Shown: positions 11,618 through 28,403 of the stretch, piece by piece
How positions within the stretch are numbered: position 1 is the first letter of the stretch
Layout of the letters: each line of letters begins with the position of its first letter
Source of the DNA: Eubacteriales bacterium
GTDB taxonomy: Bacteria > Bacillota > Clostridia > Lachnospirales > Vallitaleaceae
Assembly (NCBI GenBank): GCA_030535295.1
Contig: JAUMXK010000021.1
Coordinates: 1 to 33,263, forward strand
DNA: 33,263 bases
Direction: 5' to 3'
The notes under the pieces: model-generated
What the model was told of the DNA's origin: nothing
Seen by the model: only the letters and a program-made list of their open reading frames with translations
Database searches by the model: none
Translations under genes and position numbers: made by a program

Positions 11618-12631
11618 ATGATTCGAATTGAACACTTAACGAAAACATTTGCAGGTGGAGAATCTACCGTTCATGCCCTTTCAGATGTAAATTTGAAGAT
11701 GGAAAAAGGAGATATCTTCGGTATTATCGGGCTTTCCGGTGCAGGAAAATCTACTTTGGTACGCTGCATCAATCGATTGGAAGAGCCGACCAGTGGAGAA
11801 ATTTATATTGAAGACATCGCCATGACAAAATTAACAGAGGTGGAGCTACGTAAAAAAAGAAAAGAAATCGGAATGATTTTCCAGCACTTTAATTTGTTGA
11901 TGAACTCTACAGTGGAAGAGAATATTGCCTTTCCCCTAAAAATGAACAATTATCCGAAAGCAAAAATTAAAGAGAGAGTAAAGGAACTTTTGGAAGTGGT
12001 AGGTTTGACGGAAAAAAGAAAAGCGTATCCGGCAACGTTATCGGGAGGACAAAAGCAAAGAGTGGGTATTGCCAGAGCCTTGGCCAATGACCCAAAGATT
12101 TTACTTTCGGATGAAGCGACCTCAGCACTTGACCCGATTACCACTGAAGCGATATTACAACTTCTGAAAGAAATCAATCAAAAATTCGGTATTACCATCG
12201 TTGTCATTACGCATGAGATGGATGTAATTAAAAAAATATGCAATAAAGTGGCTGTCATGGAACATGGCTCGCCGGTAGAAGTCGGCTCTGTACTGGATGT
12301 ATTCAGCAATCCCCAGTCGCAAACTGCCAAGAATTTCTTGGAAAATGACCTGTTTCACTTATCAAAGAAGGTACAGGCGGAAGCAAAAAGTTCCAGCCGG
12401 ATTGCCTCTGTACTGAAGATTTCCTTTTGTGGAAAGACGGCAGACGAGCCTATTTTATCCAATATTATCAAGAATCACCCGGTAGAAGTATCTATTATGG
12501 GAGGAAACATCGAAGAAATCCAAGATGTCAACCTGGGCTACTTGGTTGTCAAAATCCAAGGGGATAAAGCGGATTTGGAAAGGGTGTATCAGTATTTAAG
12601 CTCTAAGAATTTGCGTTGGGAGGTACTGTAA
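11618..12631 (+). CDS. metN: methionine ABC transporter ATP-binding protein
   Basis: The 337-residue ATPase powers uptake of methionine through MetI. Walker A is GLSGAGKS (about residues 38-45), the signature is LSGGQKQR (141-148) and Walker B is ILLSDEATSALD (161-172). After the ATPase domain, residues about 265-337 form the NIL domain typical of MetN, which senses internal methionine and inhibits transport. The SD is weak (AAGTGAG). The last base of the stop is the first base of the metI start (TAATG), so the two are translationally coupled. I find no S-box, T-box or recognisable operator in front. Confidence 0.95.
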   Translation: MIRIEHLTKTFAGGESTVHALSDVNLKMEKGDIFGIIGLSGAGKSTLVRCINRLEEPTSGEIYIEDIAMTKLTEVELRKKRKEIGMIFQHFNLLMNSTVEENIAFPLKMNNYPKAKIKERVKELLEVVGLTEKRKAYPATLSGGQKQRVGIARALANDPKILLSDEATSALDPITTEAILQLLKEINQKFGITIVVITHEMDVIKKICNKVAVMEHGSPVEVGSVLDVFSNPQSQTAKNFLENDLFHLSKKVQAEAKSSSRIASVLKISFCGKTADEPILSNIIKNHPVEVSIMGGNIEEIQDVNLGYLVVKIQGDKADLERVYQYLSSKNLRWEVL

Positions 12632-13296
12632 TGTACGAATTATTTCAAGAATTAATTATACCGAGTTTCTTTGATACCTTGTATATGGTCTTTTTCTCGA
12701 CGGTTTTTTCGGTGCTTTTGGGCTTGCCGTTGGGGGTATTCCTTTTAATTACCGAAGAAGGACATATTTTGCCGTTTAAACCGTTGAATATGGTGTTATC
12801 TTCAATCGTCAATATTTTTCGTTCGCTGCCTTTCATTATCTTGATTATTTTACTGTTTCCCTTGTCCAGAATTATTCTCGGGACGGCAATCGGCTCAACG
12901 GCAGCGATTGTGCCTCTTTCTATAGCGGCAGCGCCTTTCGTAGCCAGAGTGGTGGAGTCGGCACTTCGGGAAGTACCTTGGGGAATGATTGAGGCGGCAA
13001 AATCCATGGGAGCAAGCAATTGGCAAATCATTTTCAGAGTGTTGCTGCCGGAATCGGTATCGGCTTTGACTTTGGGCCTTACCTTAACTATCATCAATAT
13101 TATCGGATATAGTGCCATGGCCGGAGCTCTCGGAGCAGGAGGCATCGGTGACTTGGCGATTCGTTACGGTTTCCAGAGATTTCGTAGTGATGTCCTTTGG
13201 ATAACAGTTATTATTTTAATTCTGATGGTACAAGTGATTCAATCGTCCGGAAACTATATTGCCAACAAATTGGATAAAAGAAAAACGAATGGATAG
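12631..13296 (+). CDS. metI: methionine ABC transporter permease
   Basis: A 221-residue integral membrane permease with about five hydrophobic segments. The coupling (EAA) loop that contacts MetN is visible as ESALREVPWGMIEAAKSMGAS, followed by LLPES. The ATG at 12631 is preferred because GGGAGG lies seven bases upstream within the end of metN; an upstream TTG would bury the SD. It is translated with metN. A 214-base gap separates it from metQ. Confidence 0.95.
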   Translation: MYELFQELIIPSFFDTLYMVFFSTVFSVLLGLPLGVFLLITEEGHILPFKPLNMVLSSIVNIFRSLPFIILIILLFPLSRIILGTAIGSTAAIVPLSIAAAPFVARVVESALREVPWGMIEAAKSMGASNWQIIFRVLLPESVSALTLGLTLTIINIIGYSAMAGALGAGGIGDLAIRYGFQRFRSDVLWITVIILILMVQVIQSSGNYIANKLDKRKTNG

Positions 13297-13400
13297 ATTA
13301 TATTGCTGGATATTCAATCTGTACAACATATTCATAGTTTTTTTGGTTATTTTCACAAAACTTAAAGCAAAAAAGCACATAAGTTGATAACATTTATCAA

Positions 13401-13429
13401 TTGCCAAAGAAGCAAAAAACGGATATACT
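13401..13429 (+). promoter_or_regulatory. sigma-A type promoter of metQ
   Basis: TTGCCA (13401-13406), a 17-base spacer, and TATACT (13424-13429). The start would be near 13436, giving a leader of about 75 bases with a good SD (AGGAGG at 13499-13504). A separate promoter lets the binding protein be made in excess over MetNI. The rest of 13297-13400 is AT-rich and shows nothing I recognise. Confidence 0.7.
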
Positions 13430-13510
13430 GGACTGACTAAATAAGAGTTGCTTTTCTAAGCGGCTAACTGTTTAGAATACACAAACTATGTTTATCTAGG
13501 AGGTAACAAC

Positions 13511-14353
13511 ATGAGAAAAAGAAGTATCGCATTTTTGTTTGCGCTTGTTTTGGCACTTTCGGTGACTGCATGCAAAGACAATAATACAGCAACAGGAGAT
13601 TCTTATAATCAAAATCAAACTGCAAACACAGCAGTAATGACATTAACAGTAGGTGCAACTCCGGTTCCGCACGCTGAAATTTTGGAAGTTGTAAAACCAA
13701 TGCTTGAAAAAGAAGGTGTAAAATTAGAAGTAAAGGAATTTACGGATTATGTTTTACCAAATACTTCTTTAAATGAAAAGCAAATTGATGCCAACTTTTT
13801 CCAACATGTTCCATATATGGAAAAATTTAATGCAGAAAACAATATGAATTTGGTTTCCGTAGCAAAAGTTCACGTTGAGCCGATGGGAGCGTATTCGCAA
13901 AAAATCAAATCGGTCAATGAAATTGCCGACAATGCAACAGTAGCAATTCCAAATGATCCTACCAATGAAGGAAGAGCTTTATTATTGCTACAAGCACAAG
14001 GATTAATTAAGTTGAAAGATGCGGCGGATTTAAATCAAACTCCAAAAGATATTGTGGAAAATCCGAAAAATTTAAAATTCCAAGAATTAGAAGCAGCGAC
14101 TTTGCCAAGAGCATTGCAAGATGTTGATTTTGCAGTTATCAATACCAACTATGCATTAGTTGCTAATTTAAATCCTACCAAGGACGCTTTGTTTATGGAA
14201 GGCGGAGAATCCGCTTATGCGAATATCCTGACTACCCGTGAAGATAACAAAGACAGTGATGCTGTTCAAAAATTAATTAAAGCATTGCAAAGTGAAGAAG
14301 TAAAGAAATTCATCGAAAGTAAATACGAAGGTGCTGTAGTACCGGCATTTTAG
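13511..14353 (+). CDS. metQ: methionine-binding lipoprotein
   Basis: A 280-residue substrate-binding protein of the NlpA/MetQ family. The signal peptide ends in a lipobox (LSVTAC, Cys21), so the mature protein is lipid-anchored on the outside of the membrane. Family blocks are VGATPVPHAEILE, the ANFFQHVPYMEKFN segment, the VEPMGAYS block, and VAIPNDPTNEGRALLLLQ, then DFAVINTNYAL. It delivers methionine to MetNI. It has its own promoter (13401-13429) and ends at a bidirectional terminator. Confidence 0.96.
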   Translation: MRKRSIAFLFALVLALSVTACKDNNTATGDSYNQNQTANTAVMTLTVGATPVPHAEILEVVKPMLEKEGVKLEVKEFTDYVLPNTSLNEKQIDANFFQHVPYMEKFNAENNMNLVSVAKVHVEPMGAYSQKIKSVNEIADNATVAIPNDPTNEGRALLLLQAQGLIKLKDAADLNQTPKDIVENPKNLKFQELEAATLPRALQDVDFAVINTNYALVANLNPTKDALFMEGGESAYANILTTREDNKDSDAVQKLIKALQSEEVKKFIESKYEGAVVPAF

Positions 14354-15387: not shown

Positions 15388-15432
15388 CACTTGTTAGAAA
15401 TATCAAATCTTCTGACCAAGAGGAGAAAAAAA

Positions 15433-16302
15433 TTGAAGAATCTCTACAATCTAAAAAGTTTGACTTTAGACGAAATCCTATCTATTCTAAACAGAGCCGC
15501 CGAATTTAAAAAAGGTGCGGTTGCTGATTTTTCCGGTAAGATTGTGGCCAATTTATTTTTTGAGCCAAGTACCAGAACCCAAAATTCTTTTATCGTAGCA
15601 GAGAAAAAGCTCGGTATTTACGATATCAATTTTAATCCAACCATTTCCAGTGTTCAAAAAGGAGAAAGTCTTTACGATACCGTTAAGACATTTGAAGCCA
15701 TTGATGTGGATGCCGTGATTATTCGTGCCACAGAAAACGAATACTATAAACAATTTGAAAAAAATCTCCAAATTCCTTTAATCAATGCAGGTGATGGCTC
15801 TGGTGATCATCCGACACAGAGTTTACTTGATTTGATGACAATTCAAGAGGAATTTGGAGATTTTTTTGGATTAAAATGTCTGATTGTGGGGGATATTGCT
15901 CATTCCAGAGTGGCAAAGACCAATATTGAAATTATGCAAAGGCTGGGTATGCAGGTCTATCTGGCGGCACCGGAAGTCTTTCAAATGGAAGAATTTGATT
16001 TTGTCGATATGGATCAAATGATACCGGAAGTGGATATTGTCATGCTGCTACGGGTACAGCACGAAAGACATCAGGAAAGATATCAGATGACCTCTGAGCA
16101 GTATTTAAATCGATACGGTTTATCCAAAGAAAGAGCTGAGAAAATGAAGGAAGAAGCCATCATCATGCACCCGGCACCATTTAATCGTGGCTGGGAAATT
16201 GACGGTGACTTGTGCGAAGGTGGAAAGAGTCGTATTTTTGAGCAGATGACCAATGGGGTATATATTCGGATGGCTGTGCTGGAAAGAGCCTTGAAAGGCT
16301 AG
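15433..16302 (+). CDS. pyrB: aspartate carbamoyltransferase, catalytic subunit
   Basis: This enzyme joins carbamoyl phosphate and aspartate, the committed step of pyrimidine synthesis. I place the start at TTG 15433: AGAGGAG lies seven bases upstream, while the TTG at 15391 is at or before the predicted transcription start. The product is 289 residues, slightly short for the family. Carbamoyl-phosphate loop FFEPSTRTQNSF (about 43-54), HPTQS with His126, GDIAHSRVAKTN, LLRVQHERH and HPAPFNRGWEI are all present. No pyrI follows. It is the first gene of the cluster. Confidence 0.96.
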   Translation: MKNLYNLKSLTLDEILSILNRAAEFKKGAVADFSGKIVANLFFEPSTRTQNSFIVAEKKLGIYDINFNPTISSVQKGESLYDTVKTFEAIDVDAVIIRATENEYYKQFEKNLQIPLINAGDGSGDHPTQSLLDLMTIQEEFGDFFGLKCLIVGDIAHSRVAKTNIEIMQRLGMQVYLAAPEVFQMEEFDFVDMDQMIPEVDIVMLLRVQHERHQERYQMTSEQYLNRYGLSKERAEKMKEEAIIMHPAPFNRGWEIDGDLCEGGKSRIFEQMTNGVYIRMAVLERALKG

Positions 16303-16363: not shown

Positions 16364-17650
16364 GTGATGTTTAAAATTATCAATGCAAAAAGAGTGTCGG
16401 AAAAGAATGAGCTGCAATGGATTGAAGTTTTAATTGATGGAGATAAGATAATAGAAATCGGTGAAAAAATAGCAGATAAGGAAGGCGTAGAAATCTTGGA
16501 TGCACAAGGAAAGTTTATTTGTCCGAGCTTTATTGATGTCCATGTTCATTTGAGAGAACCGGGATTTGAGTATAAGGAAACCGTTGCCACAGGTGCAAGA
16601 GCCGCTGCCAAAGGTGGATATACGACCATTCTGGCCATGCCCAATACCAATCCTGTCATTGATAGTGAGGAAATCCTGAATTTACTGAACGAAAAAAATG
16701 AAAAAGAATCCATCATTGATACCAAATTCTACTCTGCCATAACTTATGGTGAAAAAGGGGAAGAATTGGTTGATTTTGAAAAACAGCTGGCGGCAGGGGC
16801 TGTTGCTTTTTCTGATGACGGCAGAGGGGTTCAAGATGCCGGCATGATGTACGATGCTATGCTGGAAGCTAAAAGACGAGACAGTATGATTGTTGCCCAT
16901 TGTGAAGAAAACAGTTTAATCAGAGGCGGCTATATTCATGAAGGGAATTATAGTAAAGCACATGGTCATAAAGGGATTGTATCTCTTTGCGAGGATTTAC
17001 AGATTGCAAGAGATTGTGCCATTGCCTTGGAAACCGGTGCCCGTTATCATATCTGTCACATGAGTACAGCGAGTGGCGTAGATTTGTTGGAGTATTATAA
17101 AAGTAAATGTGATTGGATTAGCGGAGAAGTAACTCCACACCACCTCCTCCTGACAGAAGAGGATTTAAAAGAAGACGGTGATTTCAAAATGAATCCGCCG
17201 CTTCGTGGAGTCAAAGATAGAGAAAGACTGATAAAGGCATTGGCAGAAGGCACCATTCGTTGCATTGCTACGGACCATGCTCCGCACAGTGAGGAAGAAA
17301 AATCCCGTGGTTTAGCCTCTTCGCCATTTGGTATCATTGGCCTGGAAACTGCCTTTCCGCTTCTTTACACCAACTTGGTTCTGACCGGCAAAGTGACACT
17401 GGAGATTTTGGTCAAAGCTATGACAGAAAACCCGGCCGACATTTTCCGGATTGCCGGACATAGAATGAAAGTAGGAGAAAGTGCCAATTTAGTCTTGATT
17501 GACTTGGAAAAGGAATATGAAATCAAAAAAGAAAATATTATCAGTAAAAGCACCAATACACCGTTTGCCGGATGGAAGGTAAAGGGCTTGATTGACACGG
17601 TAATTTATCAAGGGAAGGAAATTGTCAAAGGAGGTCAAATCGTTGAATAA
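16364..17650 (+). CDS. pyrC: dihydroorotase
   Basis: This enzyme cyclises carbamoyl aspartate to dihydroorotate. About 428 residues, class I length. Metal ligands are visible as DVHVHLREPG near residue 60, later His in AHCEEN and CHMSTASG, and the catalytic Asp in ATDHAPHSEEEK. AGGAGG (16350-16355) is eight bases from GTG 16364 and eleven from ATG 16367. The GTG is slightly favoured; the choice changes one residue. The end overlaps the carA start by eight bases. Confidence 0.95.
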   Translation: MMFKIINAKRVSEKNELQWIEVLIDGDKIIEIGEKIADKEGVEILDAQGKFICPSFIDVHVHLREPGFEYKETVATGARAAAKGGYTTILAMPNTNPVIDSEEILNLLNEKNEKESIIDTKFYSAITYGEKGEELVDFEKQLAAGAVAFSDDGRGVQDAGMMYDAMLEAKRRDSMIVAHCEENSLIRGGYIHEGNYSKAHGHKGIVSLCEDLQIARDCAIALETGARYHICHMSTASGVDLLEYYKSKCDWISGEVTPHHLLLTEEDLKEDGDFKMNPPLRGVKDRERLIKALAEGTIRCIATDHAPHSEEEKSRGLASSPFGIIGLETAFPLLYTNLVLTGKVTLEILVKAMTENPADIFRIAGHRMKVGESANLVLIDLEKEYEIKKENIISKSTNTPFAGWKVKGLIDTVIYQGKEIVKGGQIVE

Positions 17651-18695
17651 AAAATTATTATTGGAAGATGGAACGGAATTTTGGGGAGAGTGTTTTGGTA
17701 CTTGTGAGGATGCCTTTGGGGAAGTGCTTTTTATCACCTCTATGACCGGCTATCAGGAAGTGTTGACCGACCCGGCCTTATTCGGGAAAATCGTTGTCAT
17801 GAGCTACCCTTTGATTGGAAATTATGGTATCAACCGAGATGATTATGAGGCCTTACAGCCACATTTAAGTGGATTCGTGGTCAGAGAATATGCCAAAGAC
17901 CCGAGCAATTTCCGAATGAATAAAAATCTGGAAGATTATTTGAAAAAAATGAAGGTACCGGGGCTTTTTGGGATTGACACCAGAAAGCTGACCAGACATA
18001 TCAGAGAACATGGCAATATGAAAGCGGCCATTTTGGATAGCGAAGTCTGTAAGAGTGAAGGCTTGGCCAGAATTGCAGAACATAACTTTGACACAAAGGC
18101 AATGGAGGCAACGTCTACTAAAAATATTTATCAAATCCCTGCCAACGGAAAGAGAGTGGTTTTGGTCGATTACGGTACCAAAAGCAGTATTATTCGTAAT
18201 TTCAGCGATATGGGCTACCATGTGACGGTCGTTCCCTTCGATACCGATGCCGGTGATATTTTAGACTTCAATCCGGATGCAGTGGTACTGGCAGGAGGCC
18301 CCGGAAACCCCAAAGATTATCCGGAGCAAATCAAGGCAGTCCAAGAATTAATAAGAAAAGTACCGGTATTCGGCATTTCCATGGGACATTATTTGATTGC
18401 TTTGGCTTGTGGTGCGGATATCAAAAAATTGAAGTTCGGCCATCATAGTAACGCACCGGTAAAAGATTTAGAAAGCGGTAAAATATTGATGACCGCTCAG
18501 AATCATGACTATACCGTTCACGAAGGGACTTTGGCCGGAACGGATTTGGAGGTCATATATCTTTCGGTCAACGATAGCACTATCCAAGGGCTTAGACATA
18601 GTAAGCAAAAAGTGTTTTCCGTACAATTTCAGCCGGAAGGCACCAAAGACGGACACATTGCATTTGAACAGTTTCAAAGATTGTTAGCAGAATAG
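17643..18695 (+). CDS. carA: carbamoyl phosphate synthetase small subunit with a lost glutaminase site
   Basis: In CarA, a class I glutamine amidotransferase domain splits glutamine and sends ammonia to CarB. The start is TTG 17643 (AAAGGAGG eight bases upstream), giving 350 residues. The N-terminal CarA domain is normal ([29 protein letters not shown]). The amidotransferase domain is not. The nucleophile motif GICLGHQ reads GISMGHY, with Ser246 (codon TCC at 18378-18380) for Cys. The HPE motif reads QPE, with Gln330 (codon CAG at 18630-18632) for His; Glu332 is kept. NGPGDP reads GGPGNP. The frame is intact and the overall fold seems kept, so I infer a structural or regulatory subunit and ammonia-dependent synthesis rather than a decayed gene. 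Confidence 0.93.
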
Positions 18696-18705
18696 GAGGA
18701 AGAAA

Positions 18706-21700
18706 ATGCCAAAGAGAAATGATATCAAAAAGATTTTAGTCATTGGCTCCGGTCCGATTGTTATCGGGCAGGCTGCGGAATTTGATTATGCCGGAACACA
18801 GGCATGTCAGGCACTACAGGAAGAAGGCATTTCGGTTGTTTTAATCAACTCCAATCCTGCAACGATTATGACAGATAGAGAAATGGCGGATAAGGTTTAC
18901 ATGGAGCCGATTACTCTGGATTTTTGTAAGCATATTATTCGCAAGGAAAGACCGGATGCAATTTTGCCATCTCTGGGCGGACAAACCGGTCTAAATATGG
19001 CAATGGAGCTTTACCACGACGGAATCCTCAAAGAAATGAATGTCGAAATCTTGGGAACGGATATGGAAGCGATTAAAAAGGCGGAAGATAGAGAGGAATT
19101 TCGTAGTTTGATGCGGAAAATCGGAGAACCGGTACCACCTTCTTTTATTGCGGAAGACATTCAATCAGCCGTCGATTTTGCCAATGAAATCGGTTATCCG
19201 ATTATCGTTCGGCCGGCTTTTACCTTGGGAGGAACCGGTGGAGGCATCTGTAAGGATGAGGAAGAGCTTAGAGTTACAGTGGAAAATGGTTTGACTCTCT
19301 CACCGGTGGGACAATGTTTGATTGAGATGTCGATTGCAGGCTGGAAGGAAATAGAGTTTGAGGTGATGCGTGATGCCAATGATACCGCAATTACAGTTTG
19401 CTCTATGGAGAACTTTGATCCGGTAGGGATTCATACCGGTGACTCGATTGTAGTGGCACCTTGCCAAACCCTTACCGACAAAGAAATGCAGATGATGAAA
19501 AACTCCGCTTTAAAAATTATCCGTTCATTAAAAATCTGCGGCGGATGTAATGTCCAATTGGCTCTCAATCCTCATAGCTTCGAGTACTATGTGATTGAAG
19601 TCAATCCAAGAGTTTCTCGCTCTTCGGCATTGGCTTCCAAGGCAACCGGCTATCCGATTGCCAAGGTGGCAGCTAAGATTGCACTTGGCTACCATTTGGA
19701 TGAAATTATCAATCCGGTCACAAAAGTATCTTATTGCTGTGTGGAGCCGACAATTGACTACATTGCCCTTAAGATTCCACGCTTTGCCTTTGATAAGTTT
19801 AATTCGGCCAATCGTAAATTGGGCACACAAATGAAGGCGACCGGTGAAGTGATGTCGCTGGGAAGAAGTTTTGAAGAAGCACTTTTAAAGGCGGTGCGCT
19901 CCCTTGAAATCAAAGCGGATCATATTGAACTTGCCAAATATAGAGATAGTGAAGATGCGGAATTGGTACGTATTTTGGAAAGAGCGGAAGATGAGAGAAT
20001 CTTCATTATCTATGAACTGTTAAAGAGAGGCTACACGCAAAAATACATTCATGATAAGACAAGAATTGATTTATTCTTCTTGGCGAAAATCGGCTATATT
20101 CTGGAGATGGAAAAGTTGCTGGTCAATGAAGATTTGAAAGACCATTTGGCAGCTGCTAAGAGAATGGGTTTTTCCGATTCGTATATTGCCAAACTGACCA
20201 AGAAAACAGTCGAAGAAATCACAGAACTTCGAAACGAATGGAAGATTCGTCCGGTCTATAAGATGGTAGATACCTGTGCAGCGGAATTTCATTCAGATAC
20301 CCCATATTTTTACTCGACATATGAAGAGGAAAATGAATCGGTTTGCAGTGGGAAAAAGAGTATTGTGGTGCTTGGTTCCGGCCCGATTCGGATTGGACAA
20401 GGGGTAGAATTTGACTATGCAACGGTACACTGTGTCTGGTCGATAAAAAAATCCGGTTATGAAGCCATTATCATCAATAACAACCCGGAAACGGTGTCGA
20501 CCGACTTTGCCATTTCCGATAAGCTTTATTTTGAGCCGCTGACCATAGAAGATGTCATGCATGTCATAGATTTGGAGCAGCCGGAAGGAGTAATCGTGCA
20601 ATTTGGCGGACAAACCGCTATCAACCTGGCAGCCGGACTGGCAGAACGTGGTGTGAAAATATTGGGCACTTCTCTGGAGAGCATTGATCTTGCCGAAGAC
20701 AGAGACAGATTTGAAAAGCGATTACAGGAGCTTTCCATTCCGATGCCAATCGGGGAAGTTACGGGCAGTACGGAAGAAGCACAAAAATTGGCAGCCAAAG
20801 TCGGATATCCCGTACTTTGCCGTCCATCCTATGTTCTGGGTGGCCGGAATATGGAAATCATATATTCAGATGAGGAACTGAAAGAATATATGGAAAGAGT
20901 GATTGCCGAAACGGAAGGTAGTCCTGTCTTGGTAGATAAATATGTTACCGGTATCGAGGTAGAAGTGGATGCGATTTGTGATGGTGAAAATGTATGTATT
21001 CCGGGGATTCTGGAACATATTGAGAGAGCCGGTGTTCACTCCGGTGATTCCATGGCAGTATGTCCACCGCTGAATTTATCCGAAGCGGTCAAGGCCAAGA
21101 TTGTGGACTACACGGAAAAAATTGGCAGAGGTCTTACGATTATCGGCCTTTACAATATCCAATTTGTCGTCACCAAGGAAGAAGAAGTCTATGTGCTGGA
21201 AGTAAATCCTCGCAGCTCGAGAACCGTACCTTTCCTTTCCAAGATAATGGGCATTGCTATGGCAGATGTTGCCTGTAAAGCGATTTGTGGCCAAGATTTG
21301 AAGGCTCAGGGGGCTCCGCTCGGTCTAATGCCGGAATTAAAAGATTATGCTGTCAAGATGCCTGTATTCAGCTTTTCCAAATTAAGAAAAGTGGATATCA
21401 GCCTTGGGCCGGAAATGAAGTCCACAGGTGAAGTTATCGGCAGAGATAAGGATATCAATAAGGCATTATATAAGGCGATGATTGCTGCCGGCTTTAAAAT
21501 GCCGGACTATGGTACCGTCTTATTTACTATCGGTGATAGAGATAAGACCGAGGCTCTTCGCATTGCCAAAGGTTTTGCCAATATCGGATACAATATTACG
21601 GCAACCGATGGCACACAAAGCTACTTGGTGGAAAATGGTGTGCATGCGACGACTGTCGGCAAAATCAGTGCCGGCGAAAACACGGTTCTGGATATGATTC

Positions 21701-21885
21701 GTAAACGAAAGGTACAGTTTGTCATCAATACTTTTACGGAAGTCCATAAAGCAAAGATTACAGACGGCTTTTTGATTCGTCGGGAATCGGTGGAAAATAA
21801 TATTCCGTGTATTACTTCTCTGGATACTGCCGGAGCGATTCTGAAGGTCTTAGAATCGAGGAGCTTTTCGGTAGAGGCATATTAG
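18706..21885 (+). CDS. carB: carbamoyl phosphate synthetase large subunit
   Basis: This subunit makes carbamoyl phosphate from bicarbonate, ammonia and two ATP. At 1059 residues it is full length. Two homologous halves are clear: the first begins [17 protein letters not shown] near residue 14 and the second [16 protein letters not shown] near residue 556. Each has an ATP-grasp domain with the glycine-rich loop (FTLGGTGGG and YVLGGRNME) and the EVNPR block (two copies). The C-terminal MGS-like domain (from about residue 935) is where allosteric ligands bind in E. coli. I see no missing catalytic residue. The SD is AGGAGG, ten bases after carA. Confidence 0.97.
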
Positions 21886-22277: not shown

Positions 22278-22323
22278 AAATAAGCCAATCCTTGTACTTT
22301 GCAAACCGAGGATTGGCTTATTT
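22278..22323. terminator. bidirectional terminator shared by toxin mRNA and antisense RNA
   Basis: AAATAAGCCAATCCT (22278-22292) pairs perfectly with AGGATTGGCTTATTT (22309-22323), a 15-bp stem with a 16-base loop and T-rich ends on both strands. It can end the toxin transcript and the antisense transcript, and it may also stop read-through from carB into pyrK. Confidence 0.85.
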
Positions 22324-22371
22324 CCCAATTTTCGAGAGGCAAGCCACTTTTTGGCGGTTGCTTCTTTTGAT
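22278..22371 (-). ncRNA. predicted antisense RNA antitoxin of the type I system
   Basis: From the promoter at 22378-22406 an RNA of about 94 bases would run from near 22371 to the shared terminator. Its 5' part (22333-22365, minus) holds a hairpin, GCAA-CC-GCC / GGCTTGC, followed by GCCTCTCG. That last string is complementary to the SD-side arm of the toxin leader hairpin (22160-22166). The 3' part is complementary to the 3' end of the toxin mRNA. Two contact regions plus a shared terminator resemble the par (Fst/RNAII) arrangement. The ends are predicted from promoter and terminator only. Confidence 0.7.
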
Positions 22372-22377
22372 AAGTAA

Positions 22378-22406
22378 AGTATATCATCAATACGTGGAAA
22401 ACGCAA
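22378..22406 (-). promoter_or_regulatory. promoter of the antisense RNA
   Basis: Read on the minus strand: TTGCGT (22406-22401), a 17-base spacer, and TATACT (22383-22378). The predicted start is near 22371. No LexA-type box is present here, so the antitoxin should be made constantly while the toxin is induced. Confidence 0.65.
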
Positions 22407-22450
22407 GGGGACATATTTACTTTAATACAAGAAAGGAACAGGAAAGCAAG

Positions 22451-24110
<1,660 letters not shown>

Positions 24111-25717: not shown

Positions 25718-26077
25718 ATGAGTATCAAATTATTTGACTCGGAACTGAAAGTGATGGAGGCCTTATGGAAAGAGGGGGATTTGACGGCAGGACAACTGGC
25801 TAAGATTTTGAATGAGCAAATTGGCTGGAACCGCAATACTACTTATACTATAATAAAAAAATTGGTGGAAAAAGGTGCAATAAGACGCTATGAGCCGAAT
25901 TTTACTTGCAGTGCCTTAATTAGTAAGAAAAATGTGCAAACACAAGAAGTGAAAGAACTCTTTGGTAAACTTTTTGACAATTCGGCAGAATCATTTTTTT
26001 CAGCTTTTTTTAGCAGTCGGAAATTGAGCAAGGAAGAAATTAAGGAACTTAAAGAAATTGTGGAAAACCTAAAGTGA
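25718..26077 (+). CDS. BlaI/MecI family transcriptional repressor
   Basis: A 119-residue winged-helix repressor. The N-terminus LFDSELKVMEALWKEGDLTAGQLAKIL and NRNTTYTIIKKLVEKGAI form the DNA-binding domain; the C-terminal part (about 80-119) is the dimer domain cut by the cognate peptidase in known systems. It normally binds dyads in its own promoter, and two such dyads are present just upstream. The SD is AAAGGAG. The stop lies ten bases before the M56 peptidase gene, as expected for a BlaI-BlaR1 pair. No beta-lactamase gene is nearby, so the target may be something other than drug resistance. Confidence 0.9.
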   Translation: MSIKLFDSELKVMEALWKEGDLTAGQLAKILNEQIGWNRNTTYTIIKKLVEKGAIRRYEPNFTCSALISKKNVQTQEVKELFGKLFDNSAESFFSAFFSSRKLSKEEIKELKEIVENLK

Positions 26078-26087
26078 GGTGGAGAAT

Positions 26088-28403
26088 ATGAGCATTATGA
26101 TGATGACTTTACAGGCGAGTGTAATGATTGGAATTGTTTTAATCATTCGCAAGTTATTGTGGGAAAGACTGCCGAAACTGGTATTTCCTTTTCTTTGGGG
26201 AGTTGTTCTTTTACGCTTGTTGATTCCACTTGCTGTACCGTCGGCTTTTAGCATTTACAATCTGTGGAAAGCAGAAAATCAGGTAGGAATGCAAGAAAAT
26301 ATTCTTATATTAAATGGCGATAACTCGGAAAAGAATCAGGAGCAGGTTACCATATTCTTTCCGGATAACTCTCGGTGGACGAAATCGCAGAGTATTCCGG
26401 AAGACAAGGGGAAGGATGTTTGGCATTTTTTTGCAGATGCTTTCATTTGGAAGCCATTATGGCTTACCGGCAGCATAGTGATTTTTTGCTTTTTTCTATT
26501 TATCTACTATCGAAACCGCAAAGCGATTGAACCGCTAAAATCGCTGGAAAACGATGCTTTTATCATGGAATGGAAAAAACAACATCGCTTATTACGAAGT
26601 TTAAAAATATTGGAATCCTATCATCTTAGTACACCCATTTCGTATGGAGTTTTTCACCCGAAAATCATTTTACCGCAAGAGTTCTGCCAGCAAAATAAGG
26701 CAAAGCTACATTCTATTCTGATACATGAATTTTGTCATATCAAACGCTGGGATGCATTATGGAAATGGCTTATGGTATTGGCAGTTAGTCTGCACTGGAT
26801 GAATCCTTTGGTATGGCTAATGATGTATTATTTTAATCGTGATTTGGAAGTGAGTTGTGATGAAATGGTGCTCTCTCAAATGGGAGTGGATTATCGGACG
26901 GAATATGCTCATTCCTTATTGGAAATGGCACAAGAAAAAAATGGTTTTTCACCACTTTATAATCATTTCAGTAAGAATGTAGTCAAAGAAAGAATCGTGG
27001 CGATTATGAAGTATCAAAAGATTAGATTTTCTCTAATTGTCGCAGGACTTTTGATTACTTTGACAGTGGGGATTCTTTTTGCCACATCCTCCCAACCTCA
27101 AAAACAGCAAGGAGAAGAAACAAAAGAATCGACAAATCGGTCTTTGTTTGAAAAGAGAACAAATACAGTTACGAATGACTTGAGTGTAGAACAAATAAAA
27201 CAACTTACAAGCTATACCAAAGACGAGATGGCAAAACTGGAAGCCTTGCTGCTACCGGATGTGGAGAATATGACAGTGCTGGATTTCCGAAATCAAATTC
27301 ACGCAATGACAGATACACCGGAATATATGCAATTACTGGAAAAAGCAGCTGCGGATGAGAATCTGTATATCACTCTGGAAAATCAAGGTCTTGTAAAATA
27401 TTTGCAGTATGTCTTTTACCCTCTAACTTCTGAAAGATGGCAAAAACAATTCTTTAATCAGCAAATTGGAGTAGATTATGAAGAGGCAAAGGAATTTTCT
27501 TTGGAGTGGACAAGTGTCCTGTCTGTAACCGATGAAAAGATTCTGACAATAAGAGATTATTATATTGGAAGAGAAGAAGTTATCGGTGAGATACAAAAAT
27601 TTGTATCCACAAGAAAAAAAGAAGAATTATTGGATACCGACAATATAAAGATTGCTTTTGAAAAAGCGGTTTCAGAGATTGAGAAAAAATGGTCAAAAGA
27701 TGGATTGGCGGTGGAGATATTGTATCAAATATCGCCTGCAGTTTTATCTCAAAAAGGAAATAATACAGAAAAGCTAAGAGAAGAAAGACGGTTCGCCAAA
27801 GGAACAAAAGAGGATTATCAGTCGTTACTTCGCTTGAAGAATCGTTACAAAGAGAAATTCTTAGTGGATTTTAATCGGGAAATCAGCGAATGGAGCAATG
27901 AACATGAGGAAAGTAGTGAAAGAATCTATACCGACATCATTTGGAATGACATTCTGACAGGGCTTACAGCGGAAGAGCGTGATTTTGTCCAAAATACTTT
28001 TTATTATTCTGCTACTGAAATCGCAGCAATTAATCGAGCGAAATTTACAGGTACGGCTATGAAAGGTCCAATCTTTGATATTGAGTTACAGGCAAAGACT
28101 CAACCGGACAAAAGAACACAGGCATTGATTCGCTTTAGCTTTTCTTATCAAGTGTTTTATCACATGTCTTCCCATAGAATTTCAGTGGTAGAGAGAGATG
28201 AGGCAGTCAATGGTTTTATTCGTGAGGTTCAGGCATTTTGGGCAAATATGACCACAGAAGAAACAGTTCGTTTTTTAGAAAAACAGGAGGATGTGGATAA
28301 TTGGCTAAATGGACTATGCCAAAAGTATAGCAGCGAAAAAATAAAACTTGAAATAACGAATCAAATGATTCAACGGATGAATGAAGAACAATTTCAAAAA
28401 TAG
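26088..28403 (+). CDS. BlaR1/MecR1-like M56 membrane metallopeptidase with an unknown ectodomain
   Basis: About 771 residues. The first 340 are the M56 peptidase: four membrane segments (about 5-25, 32-52, 123-141 and 318-336), and the zinc site HEFCH (213-217) with the third ligand region LEVSCDE (254-257). In BlaR1, sensing outside activates this peptidase to remove BlaI. The last 430 residues lie outside the membrane. They are not the penicillin-binding domain of BlaR1: I find no ordered SxxK, SxN, KTG set. Nor do they match any domain I know. The ATG at 26088 follows AGGTGG; a GTG at 26079 is the alternative. It is co-transcribed with the BlaI-like gene. Confidence 0.85.
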   Translation: MSIMMMTLQASVMIGIVLIIRKLLWERLPKLVFPFLWGVVLLRLLIPLAVPSAFSIYNLWKAENQVGMQENILILNGDNSEKNQEQVTIFFPDNSRWTKSQSIPEDKGKDVWHFFADAFIWKPLWLTGSIVIFCFFLFIYYRNRKAIEPLKSLENDAFIMEWKKQHRLLRSLKILESYHLSTPISYGVFHPKIILPQEFCQQNKAKLHSILIHEFCHIKRWDALWKWLMVLAVSLHWMNPLVWLMMYYFNRDLEVSCDEMVLSQMGVDYRTEYAHSLLEMAQEKNGFSPLYNHFSKNVVKERIVAIMKYQKIRFSLIVAGLLITLTVGILFATSSQPQKQQGEETKESTNRSLFEKRTNTVTNDLSVEQIKQLTSYTKDEMAKLEALLLPDVENMTVLDFRNQIHAMTDTPEYMQLLEKAAADENLYITLENQGLVKYLQYVFYPLTSERWQKQFFNQQIGVDYEEAKEFSLEWTSVLSVTDEKILTIRDYYIGREEVIGEIQKFVSTRKKEELLDTDNIKIAFEKAVSEIEKKWSKDGLAVEILYQISPAVLSQKGNNTEKLREERRFAKGTKEDYQSLLRLKNRYKEKFLVDFNREISEWSNEHEESSERIYTDIIWNDILTGLTAEERDFVQNTFYYSATEIAAINRAKFTGTAMKGPIFDIELQAKTQPDKRTQALIRFSFSYQVFYHMSSHRISVVERDEAVNGFIREVQAFWANMTTEETVRFLEKQEDVDNWLNGLCQKYSSEKIKLEITNQMIQRMNEEQFQK

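Follow-up and report, generated by a model that had tools for sequence, protein, structure and literature searches.

The stretch of DNA analysed here, 33,263 nucleotides long and referred to as the window, comes from a presumed oral-type anaerobe and carries a carA gene whose product, the CPSase small subunit, has lost both the nucleophile and the base of its glutaminase domain. We consider it very probable that this CarA and the adjoining CarB form a working CPSase that is unable to hydrolyse glutamine and uses free NH3, and that the enzyme has in this respect converged with vertebrate CPS1.

A CarA protein with an altered glutaminase site

The carA gene (17643..18695) lies in a pyr operon whose genes are all on the plus strand. 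It is preceded by pyrB, encoding aspartate carbamoyltransferase (15391..16302; NF002032, 342 bits), and by pyrC, encoding dihydroorotase (16364..17650; TIGR00857, 425.6 bits, cut-off 279). Downstream are carB for the CPSase large subunit (18706..21885; TIGR01369, 1523.8 bits, over the cut-off), pyrK for the electron-transfer subunit of dihydroorotate dehydrogenase (22292..23212) and pyrD for dihydroorotate dehydrogenase itself (23184..24110; PF01180, 330 bits). The pyrK product matches NF000799 from residue 54 with 285 bits, below the cut-off of 314, and matches PF10418 over its cut-off; the true pyrK start is probably further downstream than 22292. Outside the operon, positions 11618-14353 upstream encode an ordinary methionine ABC transporter of the MetNIQ type (NIL-domain ATPase, permease and NlpA lipoprotein), and positions 25718-28403 encode a repressor of the BlaI type and, after it, an M56 peptidase of the BlaR1 type; the scan of neighbouring genes recognised no beta-lactamase.

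TTG 17643 is the likely start of carA, because a putative ribosome-binding site, AAAGGAGG (17627..17634, plus strand), can be read just upstream, within the end of pyrC, and because a gene starting there would overlap the pyrC stop codon. The open frame, 17622-18695, also allows TTG 17622. Counted from TTG 17643, the uninterrupted frame encodes 350 amino acids. The protein has the full-length CPSase_sm_chain plus GATase architecture and passes the curated cut-offs of TIGR01368 (386.1 bits, cut-off 307), of PF00988 for the CPSase N-terminal domain (17655..18032; 167.9-170.8 bits) and of PF00117 for the dead class I glutaminase (GATase) domain (18159..18647; 124.9-126.8 bits). Its predicted structure (pLDDT 92.4) compares well with E. 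coli CarA (Z 50.3, rmsd 1.6 Å, 350 residues) and with CPS1 (Z 46, rmsd 1.8 Å, 339 residues). The window protein is a CarA by descent. Only 10 bases separate its stop codon from the start of carB, which is intact: all 30 CarB residues that were checked, spread over the two ATP sites, the gate for ammonia and the tunnel for carbamate, are kept.

The window CarA was aligned by MAFFT with E. coli CarA (NC_000913), which serves as the reference for residue numbers. In the nucleophile elbow, GISMGHY (18372..18392), Cys269 is replaced by Ser (codon TCC at 18378-18380; Ser246 counted from TTG 17643), Leu270 by Met and Gln273 by Tyr. In the QPE motif (18630..18638), His353 is replaced by Gln (codon CAG at 18630-18632; Gln330 by the same count), whereas Glu355 of the triad (18636-18638) is kept; the PGP motif past QPE is gone. 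Ala stands at the position of Ser47 (17775..17777) and Asp at that of Gly313 (18507..18509), and the ammonia-tunnel loop at Gly292-Gly293, here HHSNAP (18441..18458), is one residue shorter than the HHGGNHP of E. coli. We take Ser47, Leu270, Gln273 and Gly313 to line the glutamine pocket in the E. coli structure, with Ser47 as a glutamine contact. In a first alignment of relatives, Cys occupies position 269 in 113 of 119 rows and His occupies position 353 in 114 of 119.

The first-pass annotation had read the same two replacements with the same numbering, and had described the frame, the N-terminal domain and CarB as intact; the profile matches and the residue alignment bear out both statements. 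It had also noted that class I amidotransferases need this Cys and His, and indeed Cys269 and His353 of E. coli CarA are described as essential to glutamine hydrolysis (PMC6245113). Judged from its residues, the window CarA has near certainly lost glutaminase function. Because the two defining residues, Cys269 and His353, are both replaced, the protein falls on sequence grounds outside the glutamine-hydrolysing CPSase class, although TIGR01368 names it so.

Conservation and divergence in a congener

A congener, Clostridiales bacterium COT073 (RQYD01000011.1; COT-073 hereafter), is a cultured canine oral anaerobe (PMC6557473) that possesses the same operon. Its CarA and CarB are 70% and 91% identical, respectively, to those of the window. 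The COT-073 CarA has Ser269, Met270, Tyr273, Gln353, Ala47 and His313, together with the same one-residue loop deletion; four pocket positions (47, 270, 273 and 313) and the Gly293 tunnel loop are altered in both proteins. Because an independently sequenced genome carries both catalytic replacements at this level of CarA identity, chance or error is excluded and the Ser and Gln replacements are real. This disposes of a sequencing error at the two codons, which had been named at first pass as a possible refutation. Any wider artefact of sequencing, assembly or binning, a concern that the draft state of the window genome (142 contigs) might raise, is scarcely credible, given that the substitutions recur in the independent isolate and that the neighbouring genes keep the same order at 69-93% identity. 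The first-pass suggestion of aligning CarA proteins from related Clostridia also yielded a clear answer, in that the Cys and His change is common to related genomes, starting with COT-073.

The two halves of CarA have diverged to different extents. Between the window and COT-073, at a CarB identity of 91%, the N-terminal domain is the better conserved half, with 82% identity versus 61% for the glutaminase domain. In contrast, intact CarAB pairs with CarB identities of 90-95% have about 87% identity in both CarA domains (glutaminase domain mean 87%, minimum 77%). Constraint is therefore relaxed in the glutaminase half of CarA, and the dead domain evolves unusually fast, with the reading frame, the CPSase domain and CarB being kept. 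The dN values for the same two genomes are 0.26 for the glutaminase domain (dS saturated), 0.12 for the N-terminal domain, 0.07 for CarB and 0.04 for PyrD. Since a glutaminase-domain dN of 0.26 stands against a saturated dS, carA is still under purifying selection and is not a pseudogene.

These values also bear on the possibility that the whole pyr operon is decaying, such that CarAB is being lost and the cell scavenges pyrimidines. Another congener, G020, is without carAB and without an ATCase-like match, as might be expected from such a process. However, the six pyr genes are undamaged and stand in the same order in the window, in COT-073 and in three distant relatives, the low dN of CarB and PyrD is accompanied by a dS of about 1 or more, and the CarB active sites are complete. 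We therefore regard decay as unlikely, and prefer the reading in which CarAB is a maintained enzyme.

The G020 genome deserves a separate description. Its sequence is complete in a single contig, in which neither CarA nor CarB was found. Two transcarbamylase matches score like ornithine transcarbamylases, and a carbamate kinase is found some 600 bases away from one of these. The genome appears to have lost de novo pyrimidine synthesis and to carry an arginine deiminase-type cluster.

Recurrence among related genomes

Other glutaminase-dead CarA proteins were encountered among the first 61 related loci. Locus L075, from a Tissierellia MAG, has C269G, Q273L and H353Y, and locus L051 has C269S, Q273L and N311G with His kept. 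Searching for CarB in 199 genomes from the surroundings of L075 yielded three more loci: L204 and L205, in which Cys is replaced by Gly and His by Gln and Lys, and which are each the sole CarB match in their genome, and L225, in which Cys is replaced by Ala. The CarB proteins of L075, L204 and L205, from three further genomes, are the nearest relatives of the window CarB after that of COT-073, at 69, 64 and 62% identity; each is encoded next to a dead CarA, within a pyrBCABKD operon that is complete. The genome containing L051 (G412) has a second CarA that is also dead, the catalytic Cys being gone in both copies. Another candidate, L076, proved to be read in a wrong overlapping frame and was dropped.

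A pattern for elbows without Cys was also searched for in 391 genomes of the class. Genomes G342 and G386 have Asp in place of Cys and G159 has Glu; a search with TIGR01368 found no other full CarA in these three. A fourth genome, G348, has Cys replaced by Ser and His by Leu, and a second copy alongside has a CarA with Cys. The remaining four of the eight matches (G291, G303, G228 and G056) are not CarA. Because the pattern misses leucines encoded by TTR, serines encoded by AGY and Gly at the Cys position, these counts are lower bounds. A phylum-wide pattern search in a sample of 398 genomes recovered the window only, all other matches being unrelated.

Trees of CarB and of CarA each require four changes of the label 'dead'. 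The first group comprises the window, COT-073 and L075 (support 100/100 for CarB and 96/90 for CarA), with L204 and L205 placed next to it in the CarB tree at a weak 87/73. The second consists of L051, with L182 as a sister in which Cys is intact, and the third of L225, with L217 and L218 as intact sisters. The fourth is a clade from several families of the class, L177-L181, in which Cys is replaced by Asp, Glu, Ser or Gly; this is an older, separate set of glutaminase-dead CarA proteins. Placements in the CarA tree are less safe than those in the CarB tree owing to long CarA branches. As both trees call for four changes, the sequences point to at least four independent glutaminase losses in Clostridia-type bacteria, provided that a lost nucleophile has never been regained. 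The case singled out at first pass thus stands, but as one instance of a recurrent trait. Moreover, the window CarB is 69% identical to that of L075 versus only about 55% to those of the window's own family members, which suggests either that the pyr operon was horizontally transferred or that both share an operon of ancient origin.

These relatives are informative with regard to a Ser that might serve as nucleophile, allowing the altered site to hydrolyse glutamine by another mechanism. The fold and Glu355 are kept, and Ser has this role in other hydrolases. However, the base is gone as well (H353Q), the glutamine contacts are altered, and the E. coli variant crystallised in 1c30, C269S, is a mutant of this very position. 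In addition, relatives have Gly, Asp, Glu or Ala at this position, none of which is a possible nucleophile of such kind. Hydrolysis by Ser is consequently very improbable, and a non-catalytic CarA remains the reading that we adopt. On balance we favour an evolutionary account in which Clostridia-type lineages have made CPSase ammonia-only at least four times with CarA kept as a non-catalytic subunit, and in which the window's clade, spanning a second group, is old and stable and has its own NH3 route.

Nitrogen supply and comparison with known systems

If CarA cannot release ammonia from glutamine, another enzyme might be expected to compensate. The first-pass annotation had proposed a search for a second, normal carA, and none was found in the window genome (about 90% complete) or in COT-073 (99% complete), each of which has one CarA. 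In both genomes, the class I amidotransferases matching PF00117 are only GuaA, PyrG and CarA. GuaA and PyrG, assigned by length and motifs, keep Cys and His in both, and the loss is therefore specific to CarA among these enzymes. Furthermore, neither genome has a carbamate kinase match (TIGR00746) over the cut-off, nor an ornithine or second transcarbamylase; the single PF02729 match in the window genome is pyrB. With no carbamate kinase over the cut-off and a single transcarbamylase, located in the pyr operon, these searches recognise no source of carbamoyl phosphate other than CarAB, which would serve PyrB alone. In the other genera of the family, every CarA locus that was read has the normal motif, mostly with two copies per genome. 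One family member has a CarA match (G015:C1:590081-591097) that was reported with one internal TAA.

The supply of glutamine was also considered. The window genome, G020 and COT-073 have no full-length GSI match; the only match that they show is weaker and falls in an open frame of about 715-825 amino acids (GSIII type), whereas nearly all members of the window's family have both GSI and GSIII types. The window's genus has thus probably kept a GSIII-type glutamine synthetase, which would make glutamine available. Loss of glutamine synthesis as the cause of the CarA change is unsupported, because the GSIII-type match is kept though full-length GSI is absent.

Available glutamine leaves room for the proposal that another glutaminase provides NH3 in trans, either as a different subunit that docks on CarB or as a free enzyme that raises local ammonia. 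Subunit sharing is common among amidotransferases, but PF00117 identifies no further class I candidate in either genome, and CarA, which occupies the docking site, is retained with a conserved N-terminal domain. From the class I matches and the retained CarA, we judge supply in trans to be improbable. The first-pass reading of an ammonia-dependent CPSase is supported by the clade-shared change, the lack of a second carA and the exclusion of sequencing error, and we infer from these that NH3 is the physiological nitrogen donor.

In an ammonia-dependent cycle, CarB would make carboxyphosphate from bicarbonate and ATP, capture NH3 to give carbamate, and phosphorylate the carbamate to carbamoyl phosphate for PyrB. 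CarA, with its conserved N-terminal domain, would be retained in a structural and perhaps also a regulatory role, presumably because CarB is adapted to functioning together with it. Nucleophile, base and several glutamine contacts are gone from the glutaminase pocket of CarA, and NH3 probably arrives at the gate of CarB along a path that bypasses the former glutaminase site, in the manner suggested for CPS1. Because the old pocket and the Gly293 loop are altered, entry along the subunit interface, as also proposed for CPS1 (PMC4655335), is possible. In vivo, E. coli CarB is able to make carbamoyl phosphate with NH3 as the nitrogen source, according to Rubino (1987) as cited in PMC3017870. Since NH3 use by E. 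coli CPSase requires very high concentrations (PMC6245113), we predict that the window organism has either a better NH3 affinity or high internal ammonium. The first-pass annotation had thought such an enzyme plausible for an anaerobe in ammonia-rich, amino-acid-fermenting surroundings; the habitat information here is confined to the canine oral origin of COT-073.

No report of a naturally glutaminase-dead bacterial CarA was found in the open-access literature, to which our search was confined. In one review, glutamine is given as the nitrogen donor of every bacterial CPSase, 'by extension' from the E. coli enzyme (PMC6245113); a second states that all CPS types but CPS1 use glutamine (PMC4655335). 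The genomes with dead CarA would be natural exceptions to both statements in several lineages, and they suggest that a group of CarA proteins is wrongly labelled 'glutamine-hydrolysing' by family models. If our reading is true, databases still give this label to what is a bacterial equivalent of CPS1. The switch from glutamine to ammonia has until now been known mainly from the vertebrate urea-cycle enzyme. The lineages would have repeated, independently of one another, the step from which this ammonia-detoxifying enzyme arose, and their separate subunits would let the NH3 entry route be studied, with one cultured strain (COT-073) at hand.

The window enzyme shares with E. coli-type CarAB (CPSase II) the fold, the operon partnership with CarB and the passing of the TIGR01368 and TIGR01369 cut-offs. 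However, the E. coli type keeps Cys, His and the glutamine contacts, which the window CarA has replaced, and its tunnel loop is not shortened. Engineered E. coli CarA C269S (PDB 1c30, 1c3o) is changed at the same residue as the window CarA. C269S and G359F (1m6v) are laboratory mutants of an otherwise intact enzyme, whereas the window change is natural, is accompanied by others and has been preserved within a clade. Ammonia-only NAD synthetases (PMC3376133) likewise represent ATP-dependent amidating enzymes in which NH3 replaces glutamine. Those enzymes have no glutaminase domain, and their single-domain form is considered ancestral, in contrast to the window CarA, in which the domain is retained but dead, a secondary loss. 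The carbamate-kinase-like CPS of Pyrococcus also carries out ammonia-dependent carbamoyl-phosphate synthesis, but its fold is unrelated to that of CarAB.

The parallel with CPS1 that was drawn at first pass holds at the level of residues. In both proteins the nucleophilic Cys has become Ser (CPS1 Ser294; PMC4655335), and the tunnel is disturbed at the Gly293 position, which human CPS1 fills with Gln318 (PMC4655335). Both also keep an inactive glutaminase-like domain beside an intact synthetase half. Unlike in CPS1, the His is also replaced in the window CarA. Vertebrate CPS1, a mitochondrial enzyme, consists of one fused polypeptide of about 1,500 residues, is NAG-dependent and acts in the urea cycle, whereas the window has separate carA and carB genes in a pyrimidine operon. 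Because the nearest relatives of the window CarA are bacterial CarA proteins, the likeness is one of convergence: in its presumed use of ammonia the window CPSase works like CPS1, but it is not CPS1.
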